A DNA stretch of 62,984 nt, from contig NZ_QMEA01000066.1 in assembly GCF_012912105.1 (NCBI RefSeq), forward strand, positions 1 to 62,984. The letters are read 5' to 3'. Positions 1 through 37,247 of the stretch are shown here, piece after piece; positions within the stretch are counted from its first letter, which is position 1; every line of letters starts with the position of its first letter. Below the pieces are notes generated by a model. That model was not told the DNA's origin. It did not search any database and was given only the letters and a program-made list of their open reading frames with translations. Origin of the DNA: Brasilonema sp. UFV-L1. Its GTDB lineage: Bacteria > Cyanobacteriota > Cyanobacteriia > Cyanobacteriales > Nostocaceae. Made by a program: the position numbers and the translations under genes.

Positions 1-106
1 AACCCTTGAGATACACTGCATACGCCTTTTGTCAATCAGGGAAGTTCAGTTTAAGGAAATTTTCATTTCCCCAAAAATGGGATTGACAAATGTCGAACTT
101 TATGAA

Positions 107-973
107 TTAAAGAGGTGTAATACTGGCAATCTTGCCATTTTGGCGTTGAACCCTTTGAAAGTAATTTGATAGCTGTTCATAGGGGATAATAACTGCCTGG
201 TTAACACGGCGAACCTGAGGATATCCTGGTTTAGAAATACTTGCTACTTCAACTCGATAGAGTCGTCCTGTACCAAATGCTTGCGAACCTCCAAATGTGC
301 TGCTGGGGGTTTCTCCTCTTAGCGGAGGACGATAAGCAAAGCCATTATTGCTAAGCGCAGGAGCAACTACTGTTGATGCACTATTTTTCCCCAGTTCACT
401 AGCTAGACGAGGTGAATTTCCTGGGATTTGAGAGCGATCGCTCGTCGCATAGCCACGATAGAGCTGAAAAATCCGGGTAAAGCCCACGGTTTTCTGTCCC
501 GGTTGAGTCGTAAATCCCCGATAGTAGGGCACAATATTTTCCCCAAAGTTGACTTGGTACTCAGGTGAGTCAATATAAGAATCAATATCAGCGTCGTATC
601 CCTTCGCTTGGTACAAGTCCAGATGATAAGCTATCTCAGATTCATCATAAGGAGCACGACCTAAAAAATGTTTGTAGTTTAACTCGGTGAAACGCGTGTG
701 GAAACTATTGGAGAAAAACTTAGCTTGATACAATTGGGATTTCGCCACCTGACGAACAAATTCCCGCACACTGATCGAGCCATTCAACAGCAGAGATTCT
801 GCGCCAGTCAGGCGTTCAGATTTTAGTAAATAATCATTGCCTAAGACTTGACGATAAACAGCCGCGATCACAGCAAAAATATCCGTTTGGCTGGCATTAG
901 ACCATAATTCAATAGGAGCAGCATTACTAAAAGCAGAGGTTCCCAGTCGAGATGCGGCTGTTGTAATAGCCAT
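107..973 (-). CDS. cpcC: Phycobilisome rod linker, phycocyanin-associated (CpcI3/CpcC type)
   Basis: 288 aa. A rod linker joins phycocyanin hexamers within phycobilisome rods on the cytoplasmic face of thylakoids. The N-terminal two thirds is a linker (PBS_linker_poly) domain with recognisable blocks such as YRQVLGND near residue 40, [17 protein letters not shown] near 98-114 and VPYYRGF near 148. The C-terminal 55 residues form a CpcD-like domain (RLYRVEV ... [15 protein letters not shown]). It is the fourth and last visible gene of a minus-strand operon; a small cpcD could lie beyond the left edge. The only sulfur residue is the initiator Met; there is no Cys. By family logic this is the cpcI3-type linker of a sulfur-limitation phycocyanin operon; cpcC is the generic name. 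Confidence 0.9.
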
Positions 974-1016
974 CTAAAAATCTCCTTGATCAAAAACTTT
1001 TATAATGTCTTAACAA

Positions 1017-1040
1017 TCCCCGTACCGCGATAGTCGGGGA
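1017..1040 (-). repeat. Short GC hairpin between the two linker genes
   Basis: TCCCCG at 1017-1022 pairs with CGGGGA at 1035-1040 around a 12-nt loop. It lies in the 70-bp gap between the linker genes and has no following T run. It is more likely an mRNA-stability or processing hairpin than a terminator. Confidence 0.4.
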
Positions 1041-1043
1041 GTG

Positions 1044-1859
1044 TCAAGAAAGAGTGATACTAATGACTTTGCGTCCCTGGCGATTGAGTTGTTGCAATCG
1101 ATCTGACAACTGCTCAAAAGGGACAACCACTTCGGTAATACTCTGGCGGATGACTGTAGAGTTAGGGGAAGCCGCCTGTGTTAGGCGAATCCGATAGGTG
1201 TTACCACCACGACGGCCTGTTGAAGTACCAGTTAAAGTACCCGCAGAAGCAGGGTAGATAGGAGATACTAAGTTCTTTGCTAAATCCCAAGTTAATTGTC
1301 CTTTGGGCTTGCTTTGAGCGCGATCGCTATTTGCATAGCCTCGATACAACTGGAAGAAATAGGGAAACCCGGCTGTTTTTTGTCCGATCACGGTTTGGAA
1401 GCCCCGATAGTAAGGTACAATAGCATCTCCAAAGCTTTGCTGATACTCAACAGAATCAATGTAAGAATTAATTTCAGCTTCGTAACCCTGAGAATTATAC
1501 AAGTCAACGTGGTCAGCAATTTCTGACTCGTCGTAGGGAGCACGACCCAAAAGATGCTTATAATTCAATTCGATGAAGCGAACTTGAGAGTTGGAATTAA
1601 AGAACTTCTGTCGATACAGTTCTGATTGGGCGATCGCACGCACAAAATTCCGTACTGTAGTTTGTCCCTGACGCAACAGTGATTCTGCACTCAAAAGACG
1701 CTCACTTTGCATCAGATGTTCATTGCCCAAAACTTGTCTATAAGTCGCCCAAATGACTGCCTGGACATCGGCTTCTGTCCTCACAGGGCGCAGTTCAACT
1801 TTTTCAGCATCTGCAAACGGGCGAATCCCCAATCGGCTTGCTTCTCTCAACGCTGCCAT
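1044..1859 (-). CDS. cpcC: Phycobilisome rod linker, phycocyanin-associated (CpcH3/CpcC type)
   Basis: 271 aa. Second rod linker of the operon, with the same two-domain design: a PBS linker domain (YRQVLGNEH near 40, [17 protein letters not shown] near 98) and a C-terminal CpcD-like domain (TYRIRLT ... [15 protein letters not shown]). It is clearly paralogous to the downstream linker and would sit at a different place along the rod. It has no Cys and only one internal Met (residue 50), against several Met in ordinary rod linkers as recalled. It is separated from cpcA by 420 bp of inverted repeats, which may set linker expression below that of the subunits. A PecC identity was considered, but the neighbouring alpha subunit is phycocyanin rather than phycoerythrocyanin. 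Confidence 0.88.
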
Positions 1860-1970
1860 AATCCCACCTCCTAAATCTCAATGACACAATGACGAATCTA
1901 TTCAGAAACACCTTTCAAATCAGCGGGCAGTAGATACTTATTCCATGAACAATTATCAATAAACAATGAC

Positions 1971-1999
1971 TGGATAAGTGATAACTGATAACTGATAAT
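1971..1999. repeat. Heptamer tandem repeat (STRR-like)
   Basis: ATAACTG is repeated in tandem (GTGATAACTGATAACTGATA). Short tandemly repeated heptamers are typical of heterocystous cyanobacteria. The same heptamer recurs near 44.5 kb and 58.9 kb. Confidence 0.65.
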
Positions 2000-2013
2000 T
2001 TTTAAAAAAACCC

Positions 2014-2130
2014 TTGCGTAGTCATTGAAAAGCCATGAAACCTCGACATCATAGGTATTTCACTCAGTTGAAATTGACAGTTAATACGTCATGATGTCAG
2101 TGTTTAAAGCGTTTCAAACTGACTACGCAA
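2014..2130 (-). repeat. Nested long inverted repeat between cpcA and the linkers
   Basis: Outer arms TTGCGTAGTCA (2014-2024) and TGACTACGCAA (2120-2130) are perfectly complementary. Inside them GACATCAT (2045-2052) pairs with ATGATGTC (2091-2098). In the operon transcript this could fold as one large branched structure ahead of the linker genes. It is probably a partial terminator, processing site or stability element. Confidence 0.5.
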
Positions 2131-2160
2131 AAGGCTCGACGCATTTGCAACTTGTACGTT

Positions 2161-2268
2161 CAGTTTTGTGGAACTATGGAACGAAGTTTTGTGAAAATAA
2201 TCTGGTAATCACATGAGTTTGAATTGCACAATTACCAAATTATTTTCCTACTACATCACACAAAACTG
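2161..2268 (-). terminator. Hairpin just after cpcA, probable partial terminator or stabiliser
   Basis: Inner arms are AAAATAAT (2194-2201) plus GGTAAT (2204-2209) against ATTACC (2231-2236) plus ATTATTTT (2239-2246). A second outer pair is CAGTTTTGTG (2161-2170) with CACAAAACTG (2259-2268). It begins 11 bp after the cpcA stop. Hairpins here are known in cpc operons to keep the subunit message more abundant than the linker message. Confidence 0.5.
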
Positions 2269-2279
2269 AAAGACTCCCG

Positions 2280-2771
2280 CTAAATCAGAGAATTGATCAC
2301 ATAATCAATGTAGGAGTTAGCTTCAACAGCGGGGTCACCCGATAAACCATGATTTGCCTTGATGTATCTGAGGGCTTCGATATACCAGCTAGGAGATAAC
2401 TCAAAGGTACGGTTGATTTCAGCTAAGCCAGCAATCAAATAATCGTCGATTGGACCTGTGCCACCTACAACCAAAGCGTAAGTAATAATCCGCAGATAAT
2501 AGCCGACGTCGCGCACACATTTTGCTTTTCCAGTGGAACTAGAAGCGTAGTTAGGTCCATCCAACTGTGTTGTATAAGGATACTTTTGATACACAGCGTT
2601 TGCAGCGGCTTCAGCCAGACTTGGTGCTTTTTTAGATAACGTCTTTGCCGCTTCTAAGCTGACAGCTGCCTGCCGGTAACGACCGAATGCAACCTGGATT
2701 TCAGTGCTACCCAAAAAGCGACCTTGGGAATCCGCAGAAACAATCGCTTCCGTTAAAGGCGTCTTACTCAT
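2280..2771 (-). CDS. cpcA: C-phycocyanin alpha subunit, sulfur-poor (CpcA3 type)
   Basis: 163 aa, the usual CpcA length. It is a globin-like light-harvesting subunit that pairs with CpcB and carries one phycocyanobilin on Cys85 (KCVRD), equivalent to the usual Cys84. Typical CpcA blocks include [33 protein letters not shown] and [10 protein letters not shown]. Cys85 is the only Cys, and the initiator is the only Met. As I recall ordinary CpcA, the YCLVVGG Cys is Ala here and the GPMDEYL Met is Ile. It lies 58 bp downstream of cpcB in the same operon. This matches the CPC3 phycocyanin described for sulfur-limited Calothrix PCC 7601. PecA was rejected because the [12 protein letters not shown] block is CpcA-like. 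Confidence 0.95.
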
Positions 2772-2829
2772 TGACTTAATATCTCCAAGTTTGTTCTATA
2801 AAGGATTGATTTGATGTAGTTGTGATGAT

Positions 2830-3351
2830 TTAGGCAACAGCCGCCGCCGCGCGATCAAAATAAGTTGCAACTTCCGCAATCAGCGCGCTGCAATCACCAC
2901 GGGTAATTCCGTTAGGATCATTGGCAATGGCGATCGAGGCCTCCTTCAGCTTCTGAATGCCGACAGCAACTGAAGCCCCTGGGGTGCCCAGTGCTAAATA
3001 AGTTTCCCGCAAACCATTGAGGGCACGATCATCCAGCACACTGGCATCTCCCGCAAAAATTGCATAGGTTACATAGCGTAGGATGATTTCCAAATCCCGT
3101 ATACAAGCAGCAGCACGACGGCTTGTGTAAGCGTTTCCACCGGGCGCAATTAGCTGAGGTTGTTCAGCGAACAACTGTCGAACTGCATTGGCAACAATAG
3201 TAGATGCATTGCTAGAAATTCGGTTGATGACATCAACGCGCTTGTTACCGTCTCTAACCAAATTTAGTAAAGCATCTAATTGAGAGTCGCTGAGGTATTC
3301 TCCTCGTGTATCAGCTTGAGCAACAACTTTAGAAAAAGCATCCTGCACCAT
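2830..3351 (-). CDS. cpcB: C-phycocyanin beta subunit, sulfur-poor (CpcB3 type)
   Basis: 173 aa, one residue longer than usual. The beta subunit carries two phycocyanobilins: Cys83 (AACIRD) and Cys154 (GDCSAL), equivalent to Cys82 and Cys153. The asparagine block SSNAS and the LRYVTYAI helix are present. The only Met is the initiator, and the only Cys are the two bilin sites. The normally conserved non-bilin Cys109 is Ala110, and several Met positions are Ala, Leu or Ile (for example AACIRDLEI). It is the first gene of the operon. AGGAG at 3361-3365 on the minus strand supports this start with 9-nt spacing. Expression is likely induced by sulfur limitation, inferred from composition and the CPC3 precedent; the promoter was not identified. 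Confidence 0.95.
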
Positions 3352-4000
3352 AGTTGAAATCTCCTAAACTTTGATGAGTTGAGAAATTAGTGATGTAGTT
3401 TTAAACCAGGAAGTGAAGGATTAAGCTTTGCACTTCTTCTCAGACGGAGAATCGCACAGGAAAATCCAAAAAGCCAAGGTTAGAAAATTCCTAACCATCC
3501 GCTTTTTGAAAGCAACAATATCCTCTTCCAAAAGACTAGATTGTCTTTCAGTTTCTGAGAAAGATTCACAATCGTTATCAGAGCAATGAAACTCAATCAA
3601 ACAGAAGTTTCATTACTTTATTTTGCCTGTTCCCTCGTAATTTCTTTTATACAATAGTTGGCATCATCCTTTTTGTTACAAAATATTTCGTAATTTTCAT
3701 GAAAGCATATAAACAATTATGCACTCTGTTAATTGCAGTCATAATTGATATTTTTATCAAAACAAAAATCGTGTTTATTTTCATAAATAAACTCTGCAAC
3801 CCTTGTCTAGAGCCCTTTTAATGAGATATGGTTTTTAATGACGAGATTTATTAAGGTTTAGCAATATCTTTTTTTGGATTGTATATTTTAGGTGTCTGTC
3901 TGATGTTTTCCACAAGAAACAGTGATTGATAACTCAAAAAATAGTGATTTTATCTACTAAATTTTTGTAGCTCGAATTACAATCATTAACTAAGTGTAAC
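3352..4000. other. Upstream region of the cpc operon, no gene seen
   Basis: About 650 bp of AT-rich sequence with no credible reading frame. It must hold the promoter and leader of the minus-strand cpc operon. Apart from the ribosome-binding site at 3361-3365, I see no known regulatory motif that I would assign. Confidence 0.5.
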
Positions 4001-4083
4001 AATAGTGATACTGACTACAAAATTTTGGTAACTCGTATCACTATTAGAATGAGAAACCCGATTTTTTAAAAAAACCGGGTTTC
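4001..4083 (-). terminator. Inverted repeat plus AAACCCG/CGGGTTT terminator-like hairpin
   Basis: AATAGTGATAC (4001-4011) and GTATCACTATT (4035-4045) are perfect inverted copies. Next to them GAAACCCG (4053-4060) pairs with CGGGTTTC (4076-4083) around a loop rich in T and A. The second hairpin is of a kind common at gene ends in cyanobacteria (another is at 29343). It lies just beyond the end of the minus-strand acetyltransferase gene. Confidence 0.55.
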
Positions 4084-4108
4084 TATGGTTAGGCTGAACT
4101 ATTGACAG

Positions 4109-4667
4109 TTATTGTGTCTGTAATTCTTCCCATTCTGGGCGCAGAATGCCATATTGAATGAGGTCAAAGCGCTGTCCTTCACGCTGGATAAAGCTACGTT
4201 GGATTCCTTCCGGGGCGTTACCCGACTTTTTCGTGTACTTTGATTGAGCGGATATTATAGGTGATCGTAGATGAACCTACTCGGTAAAGGTTTAACTCTC
4301 GGAACGCATATCCAAGAATAAGTTGCAAAGCATCTGTACCATAGCCTCTACCCCAATATGCAGGATCACCAATAGCAATACCTAATGATCCAACCTGATG
4401 CATCCATTGGATTTGAAACAAACCAACACTTCCAATCAAGATATCATCAGCCAAGGTTCGTAGACGGAAGTGAAAGCTGTTTGGTGAATTTAGGACACTG
4501 GTTTCAAACTGTGTCCAACCTTCAGGAGTGATGGGTTGTGCTGGATCATTATCTGCAACCCGCAGATACTCATCATTTTCAGACCATTTCGCAAAAAATT
4601 CGCTATCTTCTGGTTTAGGTGCAGCAAGGCGAACCAACTTTCCTGTAAAAAGTGGCTTGAATTCCAT
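4109..4667 (-). pseudogene. GNAT-family N-acetyltransferase, frameshifted
   Basis: The first 149 codons read as a RimJ/RimL-type GNAT acetyltransferase (Acetyltransf_3): start MEFKPLFTGKLVRLAA, acetyl-CoA loop region GRGYGTDALQLIL near 107-119, and NIRSIKVHEKVG at the end of the open frame. A TAA stop then follows at about 4215. The expected C-terminus, EGIQRSFIQREGQRFD and on to PEWEELQTQ, is present in the next frame and ends at 4109. One extra base plus one substitution near 4203-4217 explains both defects. This is either a recent pseudogene or a sequencing error; the decay looks very fresh because the tail is intact. Confidence 0.75.
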
Positions 4668-5260
4668 GAAAAAATCCTTTGAAGCATATTTACGAACTTT
4701 TTACATATATCTTACAAAAATTTAACTTTATTCCCTGGCAATATATGTGTATTCTTTTATTGTTAAGTGAAAAAAAATACTTGATTTTAATTAAACGTAA
4801 ATCAACGAAAATATGATGAGTCAAAATTTTGGATTCAATGGCTTTTCATTGCAATTAAATTTAAGCAGAGGAAAAGATAATCTTGAGTGCAAATTTGCTC
4901 AAATATACGGATTTGACCGAAAAACTGAGAATTTGCTTATCTAGTGTCATTTTTGTTTTTGGTTATCTAACCTAATTGTTACCTTCATTTAGATTCCTGT
5001 CATAAAGAATTTTTTAGATTTTGAATTATAAGGCTTATGACTGTGCTTTGTGGAGTTTTTGTTGTCAAAATAGCTTTTTGCTGTTGAAAAGCAACTTTTG
5101 CAACTAAATTTAGATGTAAATTCTGGTCAAAGAAAACCTTTGAAAAAAAGTTTGCGATTTCCTCAATCTTTTTGCAGAACGATGCCATTACTCTTCGTAA
5201 CAGAGAGTAGTGGAGTTTATCGTCTGCTTAGTGACACTGCTAGAACCATGTCATAAGTTT
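4668..5260. other. AT-rich spacer, no gene seen
   Basis: About 590 bp separating the minus-strand acetyltransferase from the plus-strand sigma-like gene. I see no RNA gene, repeat or convincing protein. It should contain the promoter of the 5.3-9.7 kb cassette. Confidence 0.4.
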
Positions 5261-5917
5261 ATGGACGAGCTAAACCTCTACCTGCAATCGCTTATCCAAG
5301 AAGCTTGCAGTCACCAACCAACCAGCCCACAGCGTAGTAAAGCCATCAACTGTTTGCTCCGAGTTCTCCTTAAATCAAGGCGTACTGGGAGTGAAGGGAA
5401 TGATCTCTACGAAGAAGCTCTATATAAAACCATGTTTAATTTGAGCAAAACACTTTGCGACAAATATGATCCAAGTCGAGGTTCATTTTTGGCTTGGTTT
5501 AACATCTGTCTTCGCAATCAATACAGGGATGAAATTCGCGCGGCTAAACGCGATCGCTCTCACAGACAATCTGTATGGCAAAGTCATGAGGTTGAACTCG
5601 ATCCCTTAGATCAAGTTCCTTCTGGGATAGATGCTAACTTACTGCTTGATACTTGGGAATCATTTGTCCAATGGATCAAGGACGATCCTGAAAATCTTCT
5701 TAAAGCTTGCCACATAGCAAGTAACCCAAAAGCCAACTGTCAATTGCTTGCCCATTTGAGACTTGTTGTTGGCAAAGAATGGCAGGAAATTGCTGCGGAA
5801 GTTGCCTCGACACGCGGTGTCATCTCTTCTCATTGGTGCAGAAAATGTGAACCCTTACTCCAAGAGTGGTTAGATAGAAATCAGAGGCTGTTTGGAGAAG
5901 ATAACTATGAGCGATAA
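5261..5917 (+). CDS. Sigma-70-like (ECF-like) factor heading the CHAT cassette
   Basis: 218 aa from ATG 5261; a longer GTG start at 5210 is possible but less likely. Residues about 50-115 resemble sigma region 2: an acidic helical stretch, then KYDPSRGSFLAWFNICLRNQYRDEIR and a basic KRDRSHRQ run. The last about 60 residues (KEWQEIAAEVASTRGVISSHWCRKC) look like a region-4 helix-turn-helix. It would act in the cytoplasm as a promoter-specificity or DNA-binding factor. Its stop codon overlaps the DUF1822 start by 11 bp, so the genes are translationally coupled. I infer that it regulates this cassette or nearby genes; similarity to sigma factors is by motif only. Confidence 0.7.
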   Translation: MDELNLYLQSLIQEACSHQPTSPQRSKAINCLLRVLLKSRRTGSEGNDLYEEALYKTMFNLSKTLCDKYDPSRGSFLAWFNICLRNQYRDEIRAAKRDRSHRQSVWQSHEVELDPLDQVPSGIDANLLLDTWESFVQWIKDDPENLLKACHIASNPKANCQLLAHLRLVVGKEWQEIAAEVASTRGVISSHWCRKCEPLLQEWLDRNQRLFGEDNYER

Positions 5918-6866
5918 GCTAAATGTCTTACGAAAACTAGCTATTCCCTTCCCAATAACTGCATCGTTTCGCCGACAAGCCAGAGGCTACGCGTCACAGT
6001 ACTTCACTCAACAGACTCAAGAAAGAAGCTATTTTAATAGTTTAGCTGTACTCGTTGCTGATGCGTATTTTCGTCTGCTCGGTTTTGAGACTAATGTTAC
6101 CCAACCAGAAAGATGGAATGCAGTTCGCCGTCTATGGAGCGAAGCAAACGAGCTAGAATTGCGAGGATTGGGCAATTTGGAATGTTGTGTCATTGCTACA
6201 GAACAGCAGTCTGTTATTTTACCACCAGAAAGTTTGAGTGATGAGCTACGGCGGGGCGTAGCCTATCGCATCGGCTATTTGTTTGTAGAAATTGCTAGTT
6301 CTGAAAAATCAGCGACACTGATTGGTTTTCTGCCTGCTTTTCATCGCGAAACTACAGATGCAGAAGTGGCGATCGCTGATTTACAGTCTATGGATGACCT
6401 AATCGATTACTTGACGCAACAAGAAGCATCTTCACTTACTGATTCACTTGCTGAAAGAGTCCAGACAAATGACCTGACGGGAGAATTTGCAGAAAAAAAA
6501 ATTACTTACTTAAGAAACTGGTTGAATAACATTTATGAGGCGGACTGGGAACCCTCAATGCGTGATCTCAGGAGTGTCACCTGCAAGAAAAACCTCCAAC
6601 TGGCAGAGCAAGTCTTTGAAATACAACTTTCTGTTTCTCAGAACAACGACGAATTGATTTTTGTCAGAGTTAATGTCCAATGTAAAAGTGGTTCTCTGCC
6701 TAGAGGAATGCAAGTCAGTGTACCAGACGAATCTGATATTTATACCGAAACAGTCAATGAGGCAGCTGATTTGATTTCTATCCCTCTGGAATTATCTTCA
6801 GGTGAGGAGTTCTGGGTAGAGTTGCGGCTAGGAGAAACTTTCATTAGAGAATATTTCATCGCTTGA
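5907..6866 (+). CDS. DUF1822 family protein
   Basis: 319 aa. ATG 5907 is chosen because GGAGAAG (5894-5900) lies just upstream and the start overlaps the sigma-like stop. The family is cyanobacterial and of unknown function. Family features are the N-terminal LAIPFPITASFRRQA stretch, the SLAVLVADAYFRLLGFET helix near 45-65 and a beta-rich C-terminus ending in a FWVELRLGE strand. There is no signal peptide and no membrane segment. It is the second gene of a four-gene cassette, followed after 12 bp by the CHAT gene. As I recall, DUF1822 genes commonly sit beside sigma-like and CHAT genes in cyanobacteria, suggesting an adaptor or regulatory partner; no activity is known. Confidence 0.8.
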   Translation: MSDKLNVLRKLAIPFPITASFRRQARGYASQYFTQQTQERSYFNSLAVLVADAYFRLLGFETNVTQPERWNAVRRLWSEANELELRGLGNLECCVIATEQQSVILPPESLSDELRRGVAYRIGYLFVEIASSEKSATLIGFLPAFHRETTDAEVAIADLQSMDDLIDYLTQQEASSLTDSLAERVQTNDLTGEFAEKKITYLRNWLNNIYEADWEPSMRDLRSVTCKKNLQLAEQVFEIQLSVSQNNDELIFVRVNVQCKSGSLPRGMQVSVPDESDIYTETVNEAADLISIPLELSSGEEFWVELRLGETFIREYFIA

Positions 6867-6878
6867 AAAAGAGTTGCA

Positions 6879-9128
6879 ATGGCATTTAAAATCTCCTTGA
6901 AAATTGGCGGGCGAGTACAACTTAACCATTCGCAAGTTCTGCCTGTCACCCTTGCTATTTCTGATCAAGAAGGGCAAATAGAAGAACTCGTTTCGTTTCT
7001 TTCTCCTCTACCAAAACCTCTCGAAGAGAAGTTCAAAGAATGGCAGTATTATATTGGTCTTCAAGGTAATCGTAAGGTTGCAAAAAATCGTGATAAGTTT
7101 ATTTCAGGGGTAGTCAATCTCACAGAACTCGCAAATTCCTTGAAAACGGAATTAAACAAATGGTTGGGTAGGGATGGGTGGATTGATGAGAATGGAAAAC
7201 CTGATCCACGTGTCAGTCTGGTTCTGGAAAGTTTCAGGGAAAAAATTACCCAAAAGGATGAAATCCAAATTATTGTACAGACAGAAGATAGACAACTGCG
7301 GGGACTGCCTTGGCAAGAGTGGGATACTTTGGCAGCGTATACCAGCAGAGGTGTAGAAGTGGCAATTAGTGCCACAAATTTCAAGCGGCTGACTCAGAAG
7401 CAAACACCCCAAATTAAAGCAACTGCACGCATACTTGTGGTGTTTGGTGACGAAAAGCTTGGTTTTGCAGAAGAAGAGGATTTTATCAAAAGTCTGAGAC
7501 AGCATGGTGGAGAACCCCATATCCTCAGACAACCTATGCGTCAAGAGTTAGAACAAAAGTTAAAAGACTCTCAAGGCTGGCACATTTTCTTTTTTGCCGG
7601 ACATAGTGAAAGCGATCGCGACGGACGGATTGGACGCATTCAAATTAACCTAGGCGATGGCGAACAAGGAATTATTGAAATCACTGAACTGAGAGATTTA
7701 CTCGAAGGTGCGATCCAGAAAAAGCTGCAACTGGCAATCTTTAATTCTTGTGATGGTTTAGGACTGGCAAACCAGCTAACCGAGCTATCTCTACCCTACT
7801 GTATTGTGATGCGCGAAATGGTTGAGTCCTCTGTCGCTAGAGAATTATTGAGGCATTTTCTCGCAGCTTTTGTCAAAGATCGCTCTTTATTTGCATCGAT
7901 GAATGCAGCAAGGCAGCAGTTACAAAAGAAATTTGAACCCGGTAAAAGTTGGCTTCCTGTGATCGTTGCCAATCCTCTGGCGAAAGAACTGACATGGAAT
8001 CGTTTGTTTTCCGAGAGGAGGTTATCTTGGCAGTGGGAGATGGTACTGGGCATGATTGCGATCGCTTTGTTGGTTAGCCTACCCATCGGGATATTCAGCG
8101 AGTTCCAGGGTTGGGAAACCTTGACGCTTTACGCGCAACTTTACCCTCACCTCATAGTGTATCCTTCCCTGTTTCTCTGGATGCCTTTGTTTGCGTCTTA
8201 CAAAGCACATTGCATGATTCGCGTCAAGACACGCCCGTTTGTACTTTTGACACTCCTAACTGTGTTTTTCACACTGGGGGCGCTGTTGTTTGAACTGACT
8301 GGCGATCGCATGATGTTAATGGAGTTTAAATCCGATGCGACAACGACAATTTACGCACAGGAACTCCCAGAACTCTACTCCAAGTGGAGAACTTCAACAA
8401 CAGATATTCAGAGCATTCCCCAAGAAATTTTTAACACTCGTCAGGCTTTCGACGCTGAAGGAAATTTGACACTGAAAAAATCAGAGTTAGAGCCAGCCAT
8501 CAAACGTATTTACAAAGTCAATAATCTTGCGGGATTGCAAGGGCTTTTGCGGATTGCTACCGCCTATGACGTTTGGCGACAAAATACTCAAGCCTTTTCC
8601 ATCAGTCGCTGGTTTTACGCCCTCAACTTTGTTGCCATTATTAGTTGTGGTGTTCAGATTCTGGCACTTGTGGCGACGATTTGGTTTGTACCAGATTCTA
8701 TATTTAACAAGAATAAATTTTTGACATATGTCATCATTTGTGAATTAGGTATCTTGTTGTGGGTGCCCTTTCAAAGCTACAGCATAGAGCATACTAAAAG
8801 CCTGTTATTTTCACAGGAATTTCGCGGGACTCTAGCTGGACTCAATGTTCTTCTTTACGTTATTATTTCCATCATATTTTCGGCAACTGTTAGCAGCATC
8901 TACAGAAGCGCCACCAAAAAATATCAGCCTATTTTATTGTTATTGTTGTTAGGTAGTTTAAGTTTGACGGTTCTAGGTAGCTGGTTTGGTGTTTCTCTCA
9001 TTAATCATCTGTTTGGAATGAATAGTACCAATCCCGTAACTCCTTGGCTTGCAAGTAGCCTTTTCTTTGCTGCTTTATTTTTCTTCCTGTTTGTGCGGTT
9101 GATTGATCATGGCGTTGGAGACGAGTGA
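6879..9128 (+). CDS. CHAT-domain protease with C-terminal membrane region
   Basis: 749 aa. Residues 1-180 are an effector-type N-terminal region typical of cyanobacterial CHAT proteins (IIVQTEDRQLRGLPWQEWD). Residues about 180-370 are a caspase-like CHAT domain. The expected catalytic dyad is visible: His242 in FFFAGHSESD and Cys291 in AIFNSCDG. From about 390 there are several hydrophobic segments (385-410, 425-445, 455-475, 580-610, 625-645, 660-690, 700-745), with a soluble loop at about 480-580. It should therefore face the cytoplasm from a membrane anchor. The fusion to membrane helices, the sigma-like and DUF1822 genes upstream, and a membrane protease 2 bp downstream suggest a proteolytic signalling or defence unit. 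The substrate is unknown. Confidence 0.85.
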   Translation: MAFKISLKIGGRVQLNHSQVLPVTLAISDQEGQIEELVSFLSPLPKPLEEKFKEWQYYIGLQGNRKVAKNRDKFISGVVNLTELANSLKTELNKWLGRDGWIDENGKPDPRVSLVLESFREKITQKDEIQIIVQTEDRQLRGLPWQEWDTLAAYTSRGVEVAISATNFKRLTQKQTPQIKATARILVVFGDEKLGFAEEEDFIKSLRQHGGEPHILRQPMRQELEQKLKDSQGWHIFFFAGHSESDRDGRIGRIQINLGDGEQGIIEITELRDLLEGAIQKKLQLAIFNSCDGLGLANQLTELSLPYCIVMREMVESSVARELLRHFLAAFVKDRSLFASMNAARQQLQKKFEPGKSWLPVIVANPLAKELTWNRLFSERRLSWQWEMVLGMIAIALLVSLPIGIFSEFQGWETLTLYAQLYPHLIVYPSLFLWMPLFASYKAHCMIRVKTRPFVLLTLLTVFFTLGALLFELTGDRMMLMEFKSDATTTIYAQELPELYSKWRTSTTDIQSIPQEIFNTRQAFDAEGNLTLKKSELEPAIKRIYKVNNLAGLQGLLRIATAYDVWRQNTQAFSISRWFYALNFVAIISCGVQILALVATIWFVPDSIFNKNKFLTYVIICELGILLWVPFQSYSIEHTKSLLFSQEFRGTLAGLNVLLYVIISIIFSATVSSIYRSATKKYQPILLLLLLGSLSLTVLGSWFGVSLINHLFGMNSTNPVTPWLASSLFFAALFFFLFVRLIDHGVGDE

Positions 9129-9130
9129 AG

Positions 9131-9742
9131 ATGAAAGGTAAGTTAATCAGTAAAGAACAGCAGAAAGTAATTTTGATTGTAAGCTTGGCATACATTTTGC
9201 CCGTTCTAGTGATTTATCTGGGATTGGTTCCTTTCTCCTGGCGGTTTTATATCCTGATATTGGCTGCTATAGCTATTTTTAATATCGCGCGACTGTACCG
9301 ATTTTCTGCTTTAGAACTGGGATTTACTAAAAAATACCTGGTAACTTCTCTTTTTGCGATCGCGCTACCAACATTGGCTTCTGCTTTGCTCATGTTCATT
9401 TACTATATTATGCAAGGGGCACGCATCGACAACTCTGCATACAAATGGACTTTCTATCTTTTCTTTGTTGGTGTATCTTCTCCTGTACAAGAGTTTCTAT
9501 ATCGCGGCTTTTTATTCGGTATTTTTTCTAGAGCAAAGTTGGCGATTTGGGTACAGATTCTGCTCTCGACATTACTCTACAGTTTCGTTCATCTCATCTA
9601 TCGAGATGTACCTACGCTGCTGTCCACATTTATCCTTGGTATGTTCTGGGGCTGTCACTACGCAAAGTATCGCAATTTATATAGTATCATCATCAGTCAC
9701 TCACTACTTGGTGCGATCGCTATCCTGGTTGGACTAGTGTAA
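9131..9742 (+). CDS. CPBP (CAAX/Abi) family intramembrane protease
   Basis: 203 aa from ATG 9131, 2 bp after the CHAT stop; GTG 9125 would overlap it. There are six or so hydrophobic helices. The CPBP motifs are visible: PVQEFLYRG (motif 1), SFVHLIYRD (motif 2) and the C-terminal ISHSLLG (motif 3). Motif 1 is normally EExxxR; the first Glu is Gln here (QEFLYR), which could lower or alter activity. The family comprises membrane metalloproteases that process prenylated proteins or bacteriocin-related peptides. It is the last gene of the sigma-like/DUF1822/CHAT cassette. The repeat array begins about 100 bp downstream. Confidence 0.85.
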   Translation: MKGKLISKEQQKVILIVSLAYILPVLVIYLGLVPFSWRFYILILAAIAIFNIARLYRFSALELGFTKKYLVTSLFAIALPTLASALLMFIYYIMQGARIDNSAYKWTFYLFFVGVSSPVQEFLYRGFLFGIFSRAKLAIWVQILLSTLLYSFVHLIYRDVPTLLSTFILGMFWGCHYAKYRNLYSIIISHSLLGAIAILVGLV

Positions 9743-36053: not shown

Positions 36054-37247
36054 CTACCCACACTGATTCGGAGTACCGAATACAGTGTGGGCTTTCAGTA
36101 GCCCTGAAGAGTCCGTGCTGAGATTACAACACAAACCGTTCGAGCCTCCAGGCACGCTTACAGAGTGCCCCAATAATGCAATCATCTTCGCTCCATTCAA
36201 ATCAGCATCGCAAGATAGTCCACAGTTGCCGCATTTGAATTTCTTCTCAGAGCGCAAGCCAATGTGTAGACAACGATTGCAGGTTTGACTCGTGTAGGCA
36301 GGAGGAACAGCAACAACTTCTACGCCGTTCCGTAGTCCTTTGTACTCCAAAAACATCCGCAACTGATAAAACGCCCACGAGTTACTTCTACGGCGTTCTG
36401 TCTTGTTGCGCGGTTTTTGATTCGTTCTTTCACGAATGCCAGTCAAGTCCTCAATAGCTATAGATGCTTGTTCACTCTTGGCTTGCTGAATGATTGTCTT
36501 ACTAATGTTGTGGTTTACCCACGCTTGAAATCGTCTTTCGCGCCCCGATAGCCGTACCAAGACTTGCCGACATCTACGCCGACTAGACCTTGTGCGTGTG
36601 GAAGCTTTTTTCTGGAGAGACGCTCTGACCTTGCTGTATCTATCTCTGGTTTTGGTTAATTGTTTACCGCTCCATGAATCGCCGTTGCTGGTTGCGGCAA
36701 TATCACGTCGTCCAAAATCGACCCCAATTACCTTCCTTGTTGGCTGTGGGTCTGGAACTTCGTCTTTTAACTGGATGTGGATATAGTACTGCCCATCACG
36801 GTGTTTGCATAACTGAGCGCTTGTTGGTTTGCGTCCTGCAAGCTTACCACGCTGATAATTACCAGCATTGATTTTAATGTGTTCTCGACCAGACAAAGTG
36901 GTCAAGCTGACAGTCCAATCCTTCTCCCTGAAAGCAAAAATCCTAGCATCATAATCAGCAGATGTGGGTTTAAACGCAATAACGGGCTTGTTCTTTTGTT
37001 TTGCTGTTTTACGGTTAGCCCCAACTCTGGCACAAGCTCTGACAGCCAAATTAGCAGGCAACCCAAACTTAGTTCTTAAGTCTTCGTAGACAATACCTTG
37101 AATTGTCAACTTACTCGTTATGTCTGGTTTAATTATTTGGTTTGTGTAGTTGCAAGCTTCAGCAAAAGCATGAAGCACTACTTCCAATTTCTCCGACTGT
37201 AACGGCGTGGGGTTGAGTTTGCAAACTAGTGTCAGTACTTGTTCCAT
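36054..37247 (-). CDS. tnpB: TnpB, RNA-guided nuclease of an IS200/IS605-type element
   Basis: 397 aa. The RuvC residues are visible: Asp in VIGVDFGRRDIA, Glu in IAIEDLTGI, and Asp in CDADLNGAKMI. A zinc ribbon (TCNRC ... CGNCG) lies between the last two. Length and domains look complete, so the nuclease may be active. No TnpA transposase is present, so this is a TnpB-only element that would rely on TnpA elsewhere. TnpB proteins cut DNA guided by an RNA derived from the element's 3' end. A 15-bp hairpin overlaps the last codons at 36057-36091. A TATAAT-like box lies upstream near 37280 on the minus strand. Confidence 0.93.
   Translation of the reverse strand: MEQVLTLVCKLNPTPLQSEKLEVVLHAFAEACNYTNQIIKPDITSKLTIQGIVYEDLRTKFGLPANLAVRACARVGANRKTAKQKNKPVIAFKPTSADYDARIFAFREKDWTVSLTTLSGREHIKINAGNYQRGKLAGRKPTSAQLCKHRDGQYYIHIQLKDEVPDPQPTRKVIGVDFGRRDIAATSNGDSWSGKQLTKTRDRYSKVRASLQKKASTRTRSSRRRCRQVLVRLSGRERRFQAWVNHNISKTIIQQAKSEQASIAIEDLTGIRERTNQKPRNKTERRRSNSWAFYQLRMFLEYKGLRNGVEVVAVPPAYTSQTCNRCLHIGLRSEKKFKCGNCGLSCDADLNGAKMIALLGHSVSVPGGSNGLCCNLSTDSSGLLKAHTVFGTPNQCG
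36057..36091 (-). ncRNA. Hairpin at the tnpB 3' end, candidate part of the guide (omega) RNA
   Basis: CCCACACTG and ATTCGG (36057-36071) pair with CCGAAT and CAGTGTGGG (36076-36091) around AGTA, with one bulged A. It covers the last tnpB codons. In IS605-type elements the guide RNA scaffold overlaps this region and the guide starts at the element boundary just beyond. The guide would then derive from about 36056 leftward (minus strand); the exact boundary is not known. Confidence 0.55.

Follow-up and report, generated by a model that had tools for sequence, protein, structure and literature searches.

A sulfur-depleted phycocyanin operon of the CPC3 kind in Brasilonema sp. UFV-L1, and a candidate sulfur-starvation element among its relatives

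Introduction

CPC3, a phycocyanin encoded by the cpc3 operon of Calothrix (Tolypothrix) sp. PCC 7601, is the subject of papers by Mazel and Marliere (1989) and Gutu et al. (2011), and its operon carries cpcD at the end. CPC3 is a sulfur-depleted phycocyanin encoded in an accessory operon beside ordinary cpc genes, and these features are shared by the operon treated here, which occupies positions 107 to 3351 of contig NZ_QMEA01000066.1 of Brasilonema sp. UFV-L1 (the window, 62,984 nucleotides in all). The window operon differs from that of PCC 7601 in belonging to another organism, with its nearest loci in Brasilonema and Scytonema, in running into a contig end, and in having a sulfur response that is presumed. 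Tolypothrix PCC 7601 acclimates to low sulfate using antenna proteins depleted in sulfur amino acids, as stated in one article (PMC4424289), and a single sentence in another summarises the work of Mazel and Marliere (PMC10551891).

The window operon encodes both phycocyanin subunits and two rod linkers, its products are almost devoid of methionine (Met) and cysteine (Cys), the same genome holds a second, ordinary cpc operon, and the subunits group with sulfur-poor accessory phycocyanins in trees from which Met/Cys columns were removed. These findings support the view, put forward in an earlier note on this DNA, that the operon is of the CPC3 type, and so add a member to a kind that is already known. 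Very probably it encodes a spare rod of this kind that replaces ordinary phycocyanin when sulfur is short, thereby sparing sulfur. Such a rod would consist of alpha and beta subunits, two rod linkers and probably a capping linker encoded beyond the contig end; all Met and Cys except initiators and bilin anchors would have been replaced, bar one linker Met; and under sulfur shortage the isoform, presumably made and assembled in the cell, would be produced instead of ordinary phycocyanin, so that sulfur would be saved in a very abundant protein.

The operon and its sulfur content

The window is contig C300 (1-62984, beginning at the contig start) of an assembly of 8.3 Mb in 337 contigs; handles beginning with C, L and G denote contigs, loci and genomes. 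The four genes are as follows, lengths being in amino acids (aa).

2830..3351, minus strand: cpcB3, phycocyanin beta subunit, 173 aa; TIGR01339, 299.8 bits (cut-off 279.3); Met1 and two bilin Cys
2280..2771, minus strand: cpcA3, phycocyanin alpha subunit, 163 aa; TIGR01338, 291 bits (cut-off 269.45); Met1 and one bilin Cys
1044..1859, minus strand: rod linker, here named cpcH3, 271 aa; PF00427 over cut-off; two Met, no Cys
107..973, minus strand: rod linker, here named cpcI3, 288 aa; PF00427 over cut-off; one Met, no Cys

Both subunits pass the NCBIfam equivalog cut-offs (TIGR01339 for CpcB, TIGR01338 for CpcA). The earlier note had counted eight sulfur residues in 895, and recounting the open reading frames (ORFs) gave the same numbers: the four proteins (288 + 271 + 163 + 173 = 895 aa) contain five Met, namely four initiators and one internal residue in the linker at 1044-1859, and three Cys, namely Cys83 and Cys154 of CpcB and Cys85 of CpcA. 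CpcB and CpcA have no Met or Cys besides initiator and bilin sites. The three Cys had been taken for the bilin-binding sites, and judged by conservation this is what they are, as they occupy the only Met/Cys columns that hold Met or Cys in more than 95% of 89 CpcB+CpcA pairs. At positions held by Met or Cys in most ordinary proteins, the residues found here are L31, V39, A80, L87, A110, L135 and I158 in CpcB and L70, I95, A99 and I108 in CpcA; the statement that such positions had become alanine, leucine or isoleucine is thus right for 10 of these 11, V39 of CpcB being valine. The two linkers together have one internal Met in 559 aa and no Cys. They are nearly sulfur free, as had been said, but this is no peculiarity of the organism, since, initiators apart and by mechanical starts, Met/Cys number 0-3 in the 11 other complete linker pairs of CPC3 loci.

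PF00502 finds 14 matches in the same genome, which carries two CpcB genes. Contig C247 holds ordinary cpcB, cpcA and two linker genes, plus a gene whose place and product suggest cpcE. Together, its counterparts of the four window proteins contain 27 Met+Cys (7+3, 3+2, 6+1 and 5+0) against 8 in the window operon; without initiators and bilin Cys the figures are 20 and 1, with a Poisson chance of about 4e-8 by hand arithmetic. The Met/Cys-normal second operon, whose absence would have refuted the earlier note, is thus present. ApcA, ApcB and phycoerythrin of this genome are not sulfur-depleted; a phycoerythrin-type pair, named by eye, lies on C293.

At its downstream end and in its middle the operon shows two further features.

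1..106, minus strand: contig end, 106 bp beyond the last linker; relatives L064, L065 and L066 have cpcD after the second linker
1860..2279, minus strand: gap of 420 bp separating cpcA3 from the first linker gene

As only 106 bp separate the last linker from the contig end at which the window begins, part of the operon may be missing from it. In two Brasilonema loci (L064 and L065) the second linker is followed by CpcD, of 82 aa with one Met and no Cys, the L064 protein scoring above the CpcD cut-off, and the same CpcD occurs in Scytonema L066 as a mechanical ORF of 86 aa (two Met, no Cys). A search of the window's own assembly for cpcD gave no clear copy, the two matches falling within a frame of 437 aa on C199 (57%) and in a stretch on C293 that has one stop (38%). 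The loci of the three nearest relatives showed no recognisable cpcE, and the window contig stops after the second linker. In L067 and L073, too, cpcA3 and the linker genes are about 500 bp apart.

Relatives and phylogeny

Relatives were gathered by a contig scan with CpcB, from which 80 of 118 loci were kept: 24 accessory CPC3 loci, 6 Nostoc-type sulfur-poor loci and 50 other cpc loci. Closest to the window among the 80 kept of 118 are Brasilonema angustatum and Brasilonema sp. CT11 (both 97%) and Scytonema tolypothrichoides (95%); the CpcB of Scytonema L066 is 95% identical to that of the window. In a tree of the 89 CpcB+CpcA pairs, with the 26 columns containing any Met or Cys dropped, the 31 operons with 0 or 1 excess Met/Cys, the window included, share one side of a branch (Shimodaira-Hasegawa-like approximate likelihood ratio test, SH-aLRT, 97), and a careful 55-row tree, again with Met/Cys columns dropped, keeps 21 of 21 such rows together (99/99). 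The tree set lacks the CPC3 of PCC 7601, for which a search found no sequence record. The border of the CPC3 group is uncertain, a clade of the 17 accessory rows alone not being rejected in the 55-row set (approximately unbiased test, p-AU 0.386).

CpcB genes were counted in 22 named genomes with every candidate scored, and all 14 of those with accessory CPC3 (L064-L067, L070, L071, L074, L076, L077, L081, L088, L089, L090 and L122) carry 2-4 CpcB genes at E up to 1e-50. Eight accessory loci of Calothrix, Fischerella and Scytonematopsis (L070, L074, L076, L077, L078, L081, L083 and L088) resemble the window in their sulfur-poor cpcB and cpcA (0-1 excess) and belong to the same large tree group, but differ in a palindrome before cpcB3 (8/8), in sulfur genes nearby (6/8) and in that no linker gene was recognised beside cpcBA (8/8). 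Nostoc ATCC 43529, N. linckia z4, N. calcicola FACHB-3891, Nostoc FACHB-973 and Desmonostoc geniculatum likewise retain, in CpcB and CpcA, no sulfur residues but initiator Met and bilin Cys, but theirs is the only CpcB found per genome and adjoins a cpcE-like gene.

Sulfur-poor pairs also occur elsewhere. Those of Dendronalium and Amazonocrinis (L123 from 615, L130 from 2911; 1 excess Met/Cys each) fall among ordinary pairs in the tree, and that of Geminocystis (L133 from 2486; 2 excess) lies outside the CPC3 group; by their placement all three appear to be further sulfur losses outside that group. Six records in a plasmid search match CpcA3, the best (84%) in a 1.2-Mb Kovacikia replicon.

Sulfur genes and a 26-bp palindrome at CPC3 loci

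Fetched flanks of up to 9 kb were searched by BLAST with 14 neighbour queries. CysA, CysT, sulfate-binding protein, SsuA, SsuD, O-acetylhomoserine sulfhydrylase and an NtaA/DmoA-family monooxygenase were over NCBIfam cut-offs and TauD, sulfatase and TauE over Pfam cut-offs; DszC/SfnB-like and SsuB-like proteins were below NCBIfam cut-offs, and CysW and SsuC were named by place only. At least one sulfur-acquisition gene was found beside 14 of the 24 accessory CPC3 loci and beside none of the 6 Nostoc-type or 50 other cpc loci (Fisher p 4e-9, a value that is too strong, as the queries were picked from CPC3 loci and several of the loci are closely related). After cpcD, Scytonema L066 has a TauE/SafE gene.

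A 26-bp palindrome, with approximate consensus TACGGTAAnTCGATAGAnTTACnGTA, was modelled as a matrix from eight sites before cpcB3 that had been picked by eye from inverted repeats. With a threshold of 12 bits, the 24 accessory loci (411 kb) yield 72 sites, of which 71 lie outside ORFs of at least 100 aa; the other 56 loci (876 kb) yield 21, 15 of them inside such ORFs. At 18 bits or more there are 57 sites in the accessory loci, training sites included, against none in the other 56 loci and none in three resampled accessory sets. The palindrome precedes cpcB3 in 9 of the 24 accessory loci (the eight Calothrix, Fischerella and Scytonematopsis loci and L089), and it stands also before ssuA, ssuB, ssuD, sbp, cysA, a sulfatase gene and a porin gene, none of which was in the training set.

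Whole genomes were scanned on both strands with a degenerate pattern (up to two mismatches), the reversed pattern serving as control. Matches against reversed matches were 12 vs 2 in the window's own genome, 43 vs 7 in N. carneum, 48 vs 2 in N. calcicola, 21 vs 4 in Nostoc ATCC 43529, 15 vs 0 in Brasilonema CT11 and 7 vs 2 in the Scytonema of L066. The own genome has palindrome sites at sulfur genes, though none before cpcB3: sites on C284 precede an SsuA gene, an SsuD-like gene, the gene of a 607-aa protein and other genes, one on C272 precedes SsuE, and one on C326 precedes a TauE-like gene (named by eye; NCBIfam gave no match). A site on C334 is close to DmoA- and TauD-like genes without standing in front of them, one on C138 lies ahead of an aminotransferase-like gene, and behind those on C12 and at L305 12075 no gene was recognised. 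At or near such sites lie the genes of four proteins with one Met and no Cys each (L305 3055-4182, L306 5312-7135, L307 6341-6907 and L310 2939-3850; 375, 607, 188 and 303 aa).

Elsewhere, palindrome sites precede tauD-type genes in N. calcicola (L315) and N. carneum (L313). In Nostoc ATCC 43529 the cysE gene (over cut-off) has a site on either side, and one of these separates it from a gene of the Rrf2 family. The best specific match of the latter is CymR, at 91 bits and so below the cut-off of 195; next comes a cysK-like gene named by eye. The whole stretch (L319 6643-10171, on C82) comprises Crp-family, cysE, Rrf2-family and cysK-like genes with palindromes between, and may be a sulfur regulator locus. 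We propose the CymR-like Rrf2 protein as a candidate regulator of the palindrome, which is a proposal and not a result; the product of the adjoining Crp-family gene is an alternative candidate, CysR of Synechococcus being of the Crp family. CysR regulates sulfate assimilation in Synechococcus (PMC12016511).

Two features concern the region before the window's own cpcB3.

3672..3695, minus strand: upstream element, position-conserved, 344 to 321 bp before the cpcB3 start
3352..4217, minus strand: region upstream of cpcB3, with no 26-bp palindrome copy of 9 bits or more

The upstream element stood out by its mismatch sum: the lowest was 17, while three shuffles gave 21, 26 and 22. As a sulfur element of the window's subclade it was rejected, weaker look-alikes standing before several ordinary cpc operons, and it is perhaps a general cpc promoter element. 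A leader RNA before cpcB3 with a hairpin at 3478-3496 found no support in a four-sequence fold (covariation term +1.38; 3 of 81 pairs kept by two-sided changes), and Rfam gave no match near gathering score in 1-4700. Promoter-like sites (7 against a shuffle mean of 8.5) and terminator-like sites (3 against 3.5) were not in excess.

Sulfur-free phycocyanin as the sole phycocyanin found in some Nostoc and Desmonostoc

In the five Nostoc and Desmonostoc genomes named above, the single CpcB found at E up to 1e-50 is sulfur-free. In group g7 of an order-wide search the best CpcB has at most one internal Met in 12 of 12 genomes, and 10 of 12 have a single CpcB at E up to 1e-60 (nine candidates per genome scored), two of the five named genomes sharing coordinates with g7 members. 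Since these phycocyanins are alone, they are presumably made in replete sulfate.

The depletion extends beyond phycocyanin. The counts for ATCC 43529 and N. calcicola are one Met and four Cys in CpeB, 1-2 Met and two Cys in CpeA, and 2-4 Met and one Cys in ApcB. Most of their rod linkers hold 1-2 Met and lack Cys altogether; Met/Cys are more numerous in ApcD-type proteins and in a linker of 343 aa, and ApcE was seen only in pieces. ApcA was searched in 36 genomes and measured in 30 (two gave no match and four matches were without locus). Within the matched stretch it has no internal Met in all four of the five genomes with a match, Desmonostoc giving none; the number is low in eight intermediate Nostoc (0-2) and N. 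carneum (1) as well, against 1-7 in accessory-CPC3 genomes and 4-6 in three ordinary ones. RbcL is only mildly lower: its Met+Cys count is 14-19 in the five sole-CpcB genomes and 15-16 in four intermediate Nostoc, against 17 in the window genome, 17-22 in nine genomes with accessory CPC3 and 20-26 in five ordinary ones. In CpcB+CpcA, the Nostoc-type operons of intermediate sulfur content show an excess of 3-6 Met/Cys. Loci L084, L085, L117, L118 and L121 and genomes G398 and G406 are possible instances of permanent sulfur sparing in Nostoc and Desmonostoc.

The idea that CPC3 replaced the whole Nostoc phycocyanin was not upheld: the trees place the sole Nostoc CpcB+CpcA with CPC3 (97; 99/99), but the linkers group with other Nostoc linkers and not with those of CPC3. 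A clade of sole and other Nostoc proteins is not rejected either (p-AU 0.61 in the 89-row set, where it is 5.6 log units better than the free tree, and 0.378 in the 55-row set), and the exact border of the CPC3 group is therefore uncertain. On these trees, either a replacement of cpcBA only or an independent sulfur loss in place may account for the sole Nostoc phycocyanin. A literature search, judged by titles, with one query aimed at each subject and with most subscription journals outside its coverage, found no report of sulfur-free sole phycocyanins or of the 26-bp palindrome.

Competing explanations

Several observations weigh against a conditional, sulfur-responsive role for the window operon. 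No palindrome site of at least 9 bits lies before its cpcB3, whether in the upstream region or in the 450 bp test range; the palindrome is missing before cpcB3 in 15 of 24 accessory loci, including the 12 that make up the window's subclade; no sulfur gene was seen among the window's other ORFs, judged by eye, with only the GNAT gene searched against families; and in some Nostoc a sulfur-free phycocyanin is the sole one, so that lack of sulfur is no proof of conditional use. Because the palindrome is absent before the window's cpcB3, sulfur-controlled expression is something we infer here.

The operon might accordingly be constitutive, as part of a long-term low-sulfur economy such as may exist in some Nostoc. 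The five sole-CpcB genomes, the missing palindrome and the look-alikes of the upstream element before ordinary cpc operons would all agree with this, but the window genome retains its ordinary cpc operon and has undepleted ApcA, ApcB and phycoerythrin, which makes a constitutive role unlikely.

Somewhat less likely still is that Met and Cys were removed for resistance to oxidation, as in desiccation or ultraviolet light, and not to save sulfur. Both residues are prone to oxidation, and many carriers belong to genera regarded as terrestrial. Tryptophan, tyrosine and histidine are oxidation-prone as well, however, and a comparison of 31 sulfur-poor pairs (window, 24 accessory loci, 6 Nostoc-type) with 38 ordinary CpcB+CpcA pairs, 20 intermediate pairs being left out, found none of them reduced (1.2 vs 1.0, 17.5 vs 16.3 and 1.2 vs 1.1 per pair). 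Met falls from 10.5 in ordinary to 2.0 in sulfur-poor pairs and Cys from 5.2 to 3.1, and the replaced positions are shared across the 31 operons; isoleucine, leucine and valine are commoner in sulfur-poor pairs, side-chain nitrogen and carbon are slightly higher, and phenylalanine (9.1 vs 9.9) and threonine (18.2 vs 21.2) are lower. Because tryptophan, tyrosine and histidine are not reduced while Met and Cys are, the loss pattern fits sulfur saving better than general oxidation resistance, and in relatives both neighbourhood and palindrome point to sulfur acquisition.

That the operon encodes a light-colour-regulated, CPC2-like phycocyanin whose low sulfur is incidental is very improbable: chromatic acclimators have several cpc operons, and N. 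carneum has two further cpcBA pairs close together (L129), but with 9 and 8 excess Met/Cys neither is sulfur-poor, and the tree places both among ordinary phycocyanins. Chance or biased base composition, for which we found no supporting point, is negligible given the contrast of 20 to 1 between sister operons and the same positions replaced across 31 operons.

With the spare CPC3-kind rod as the preferred reading for the window, the comparison somewhat favours two modes of sulfur loss from phycobilisomes. In the CPC3 mode a spare phycocyanin would be kept, partly within a sulfur-starvation regulon defined by the palindrome, which also marks ssu, sbp, cys, tauD and sulfatase genes and is possibly read by the CymR-like Rrf2 regulator adjoining cysK and cysE; in the permanent mode, proposed for some Nostoc and Desmonostoc, a sole sulfur-free phycocyanin would go with stripped phycoerythrin, ApcA and rod linkers. 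The window organism would follow the CPC3 mode with its cpcB3 outside the palindrome regulon, implying another switch.

Other genes of the window

Upstream of the operon, a GNAT-type gene (4218-4667) encodes 149 aa against 205 aa in Brasilonema L065 and may be disrupted close to its end. Sigma-factor-like, CHAT-like and CPBP-like ORFs lie close together at 5210-9742, and a TnpB-like transposon ORF at 36054-37247, all named by eye.

Significance

The operon extends the classic case of element sparing to a genome nearest Brasilonema and Scytonema, and the comparison yields a candidate sulfur-starvation DNA element in filamentous cyanobacteria together with a candidate regulator. With lineages in which the sulfur-free antenna protein appears to stand alone, conditional and permanent element sparing may become comparable in one and the same protein.

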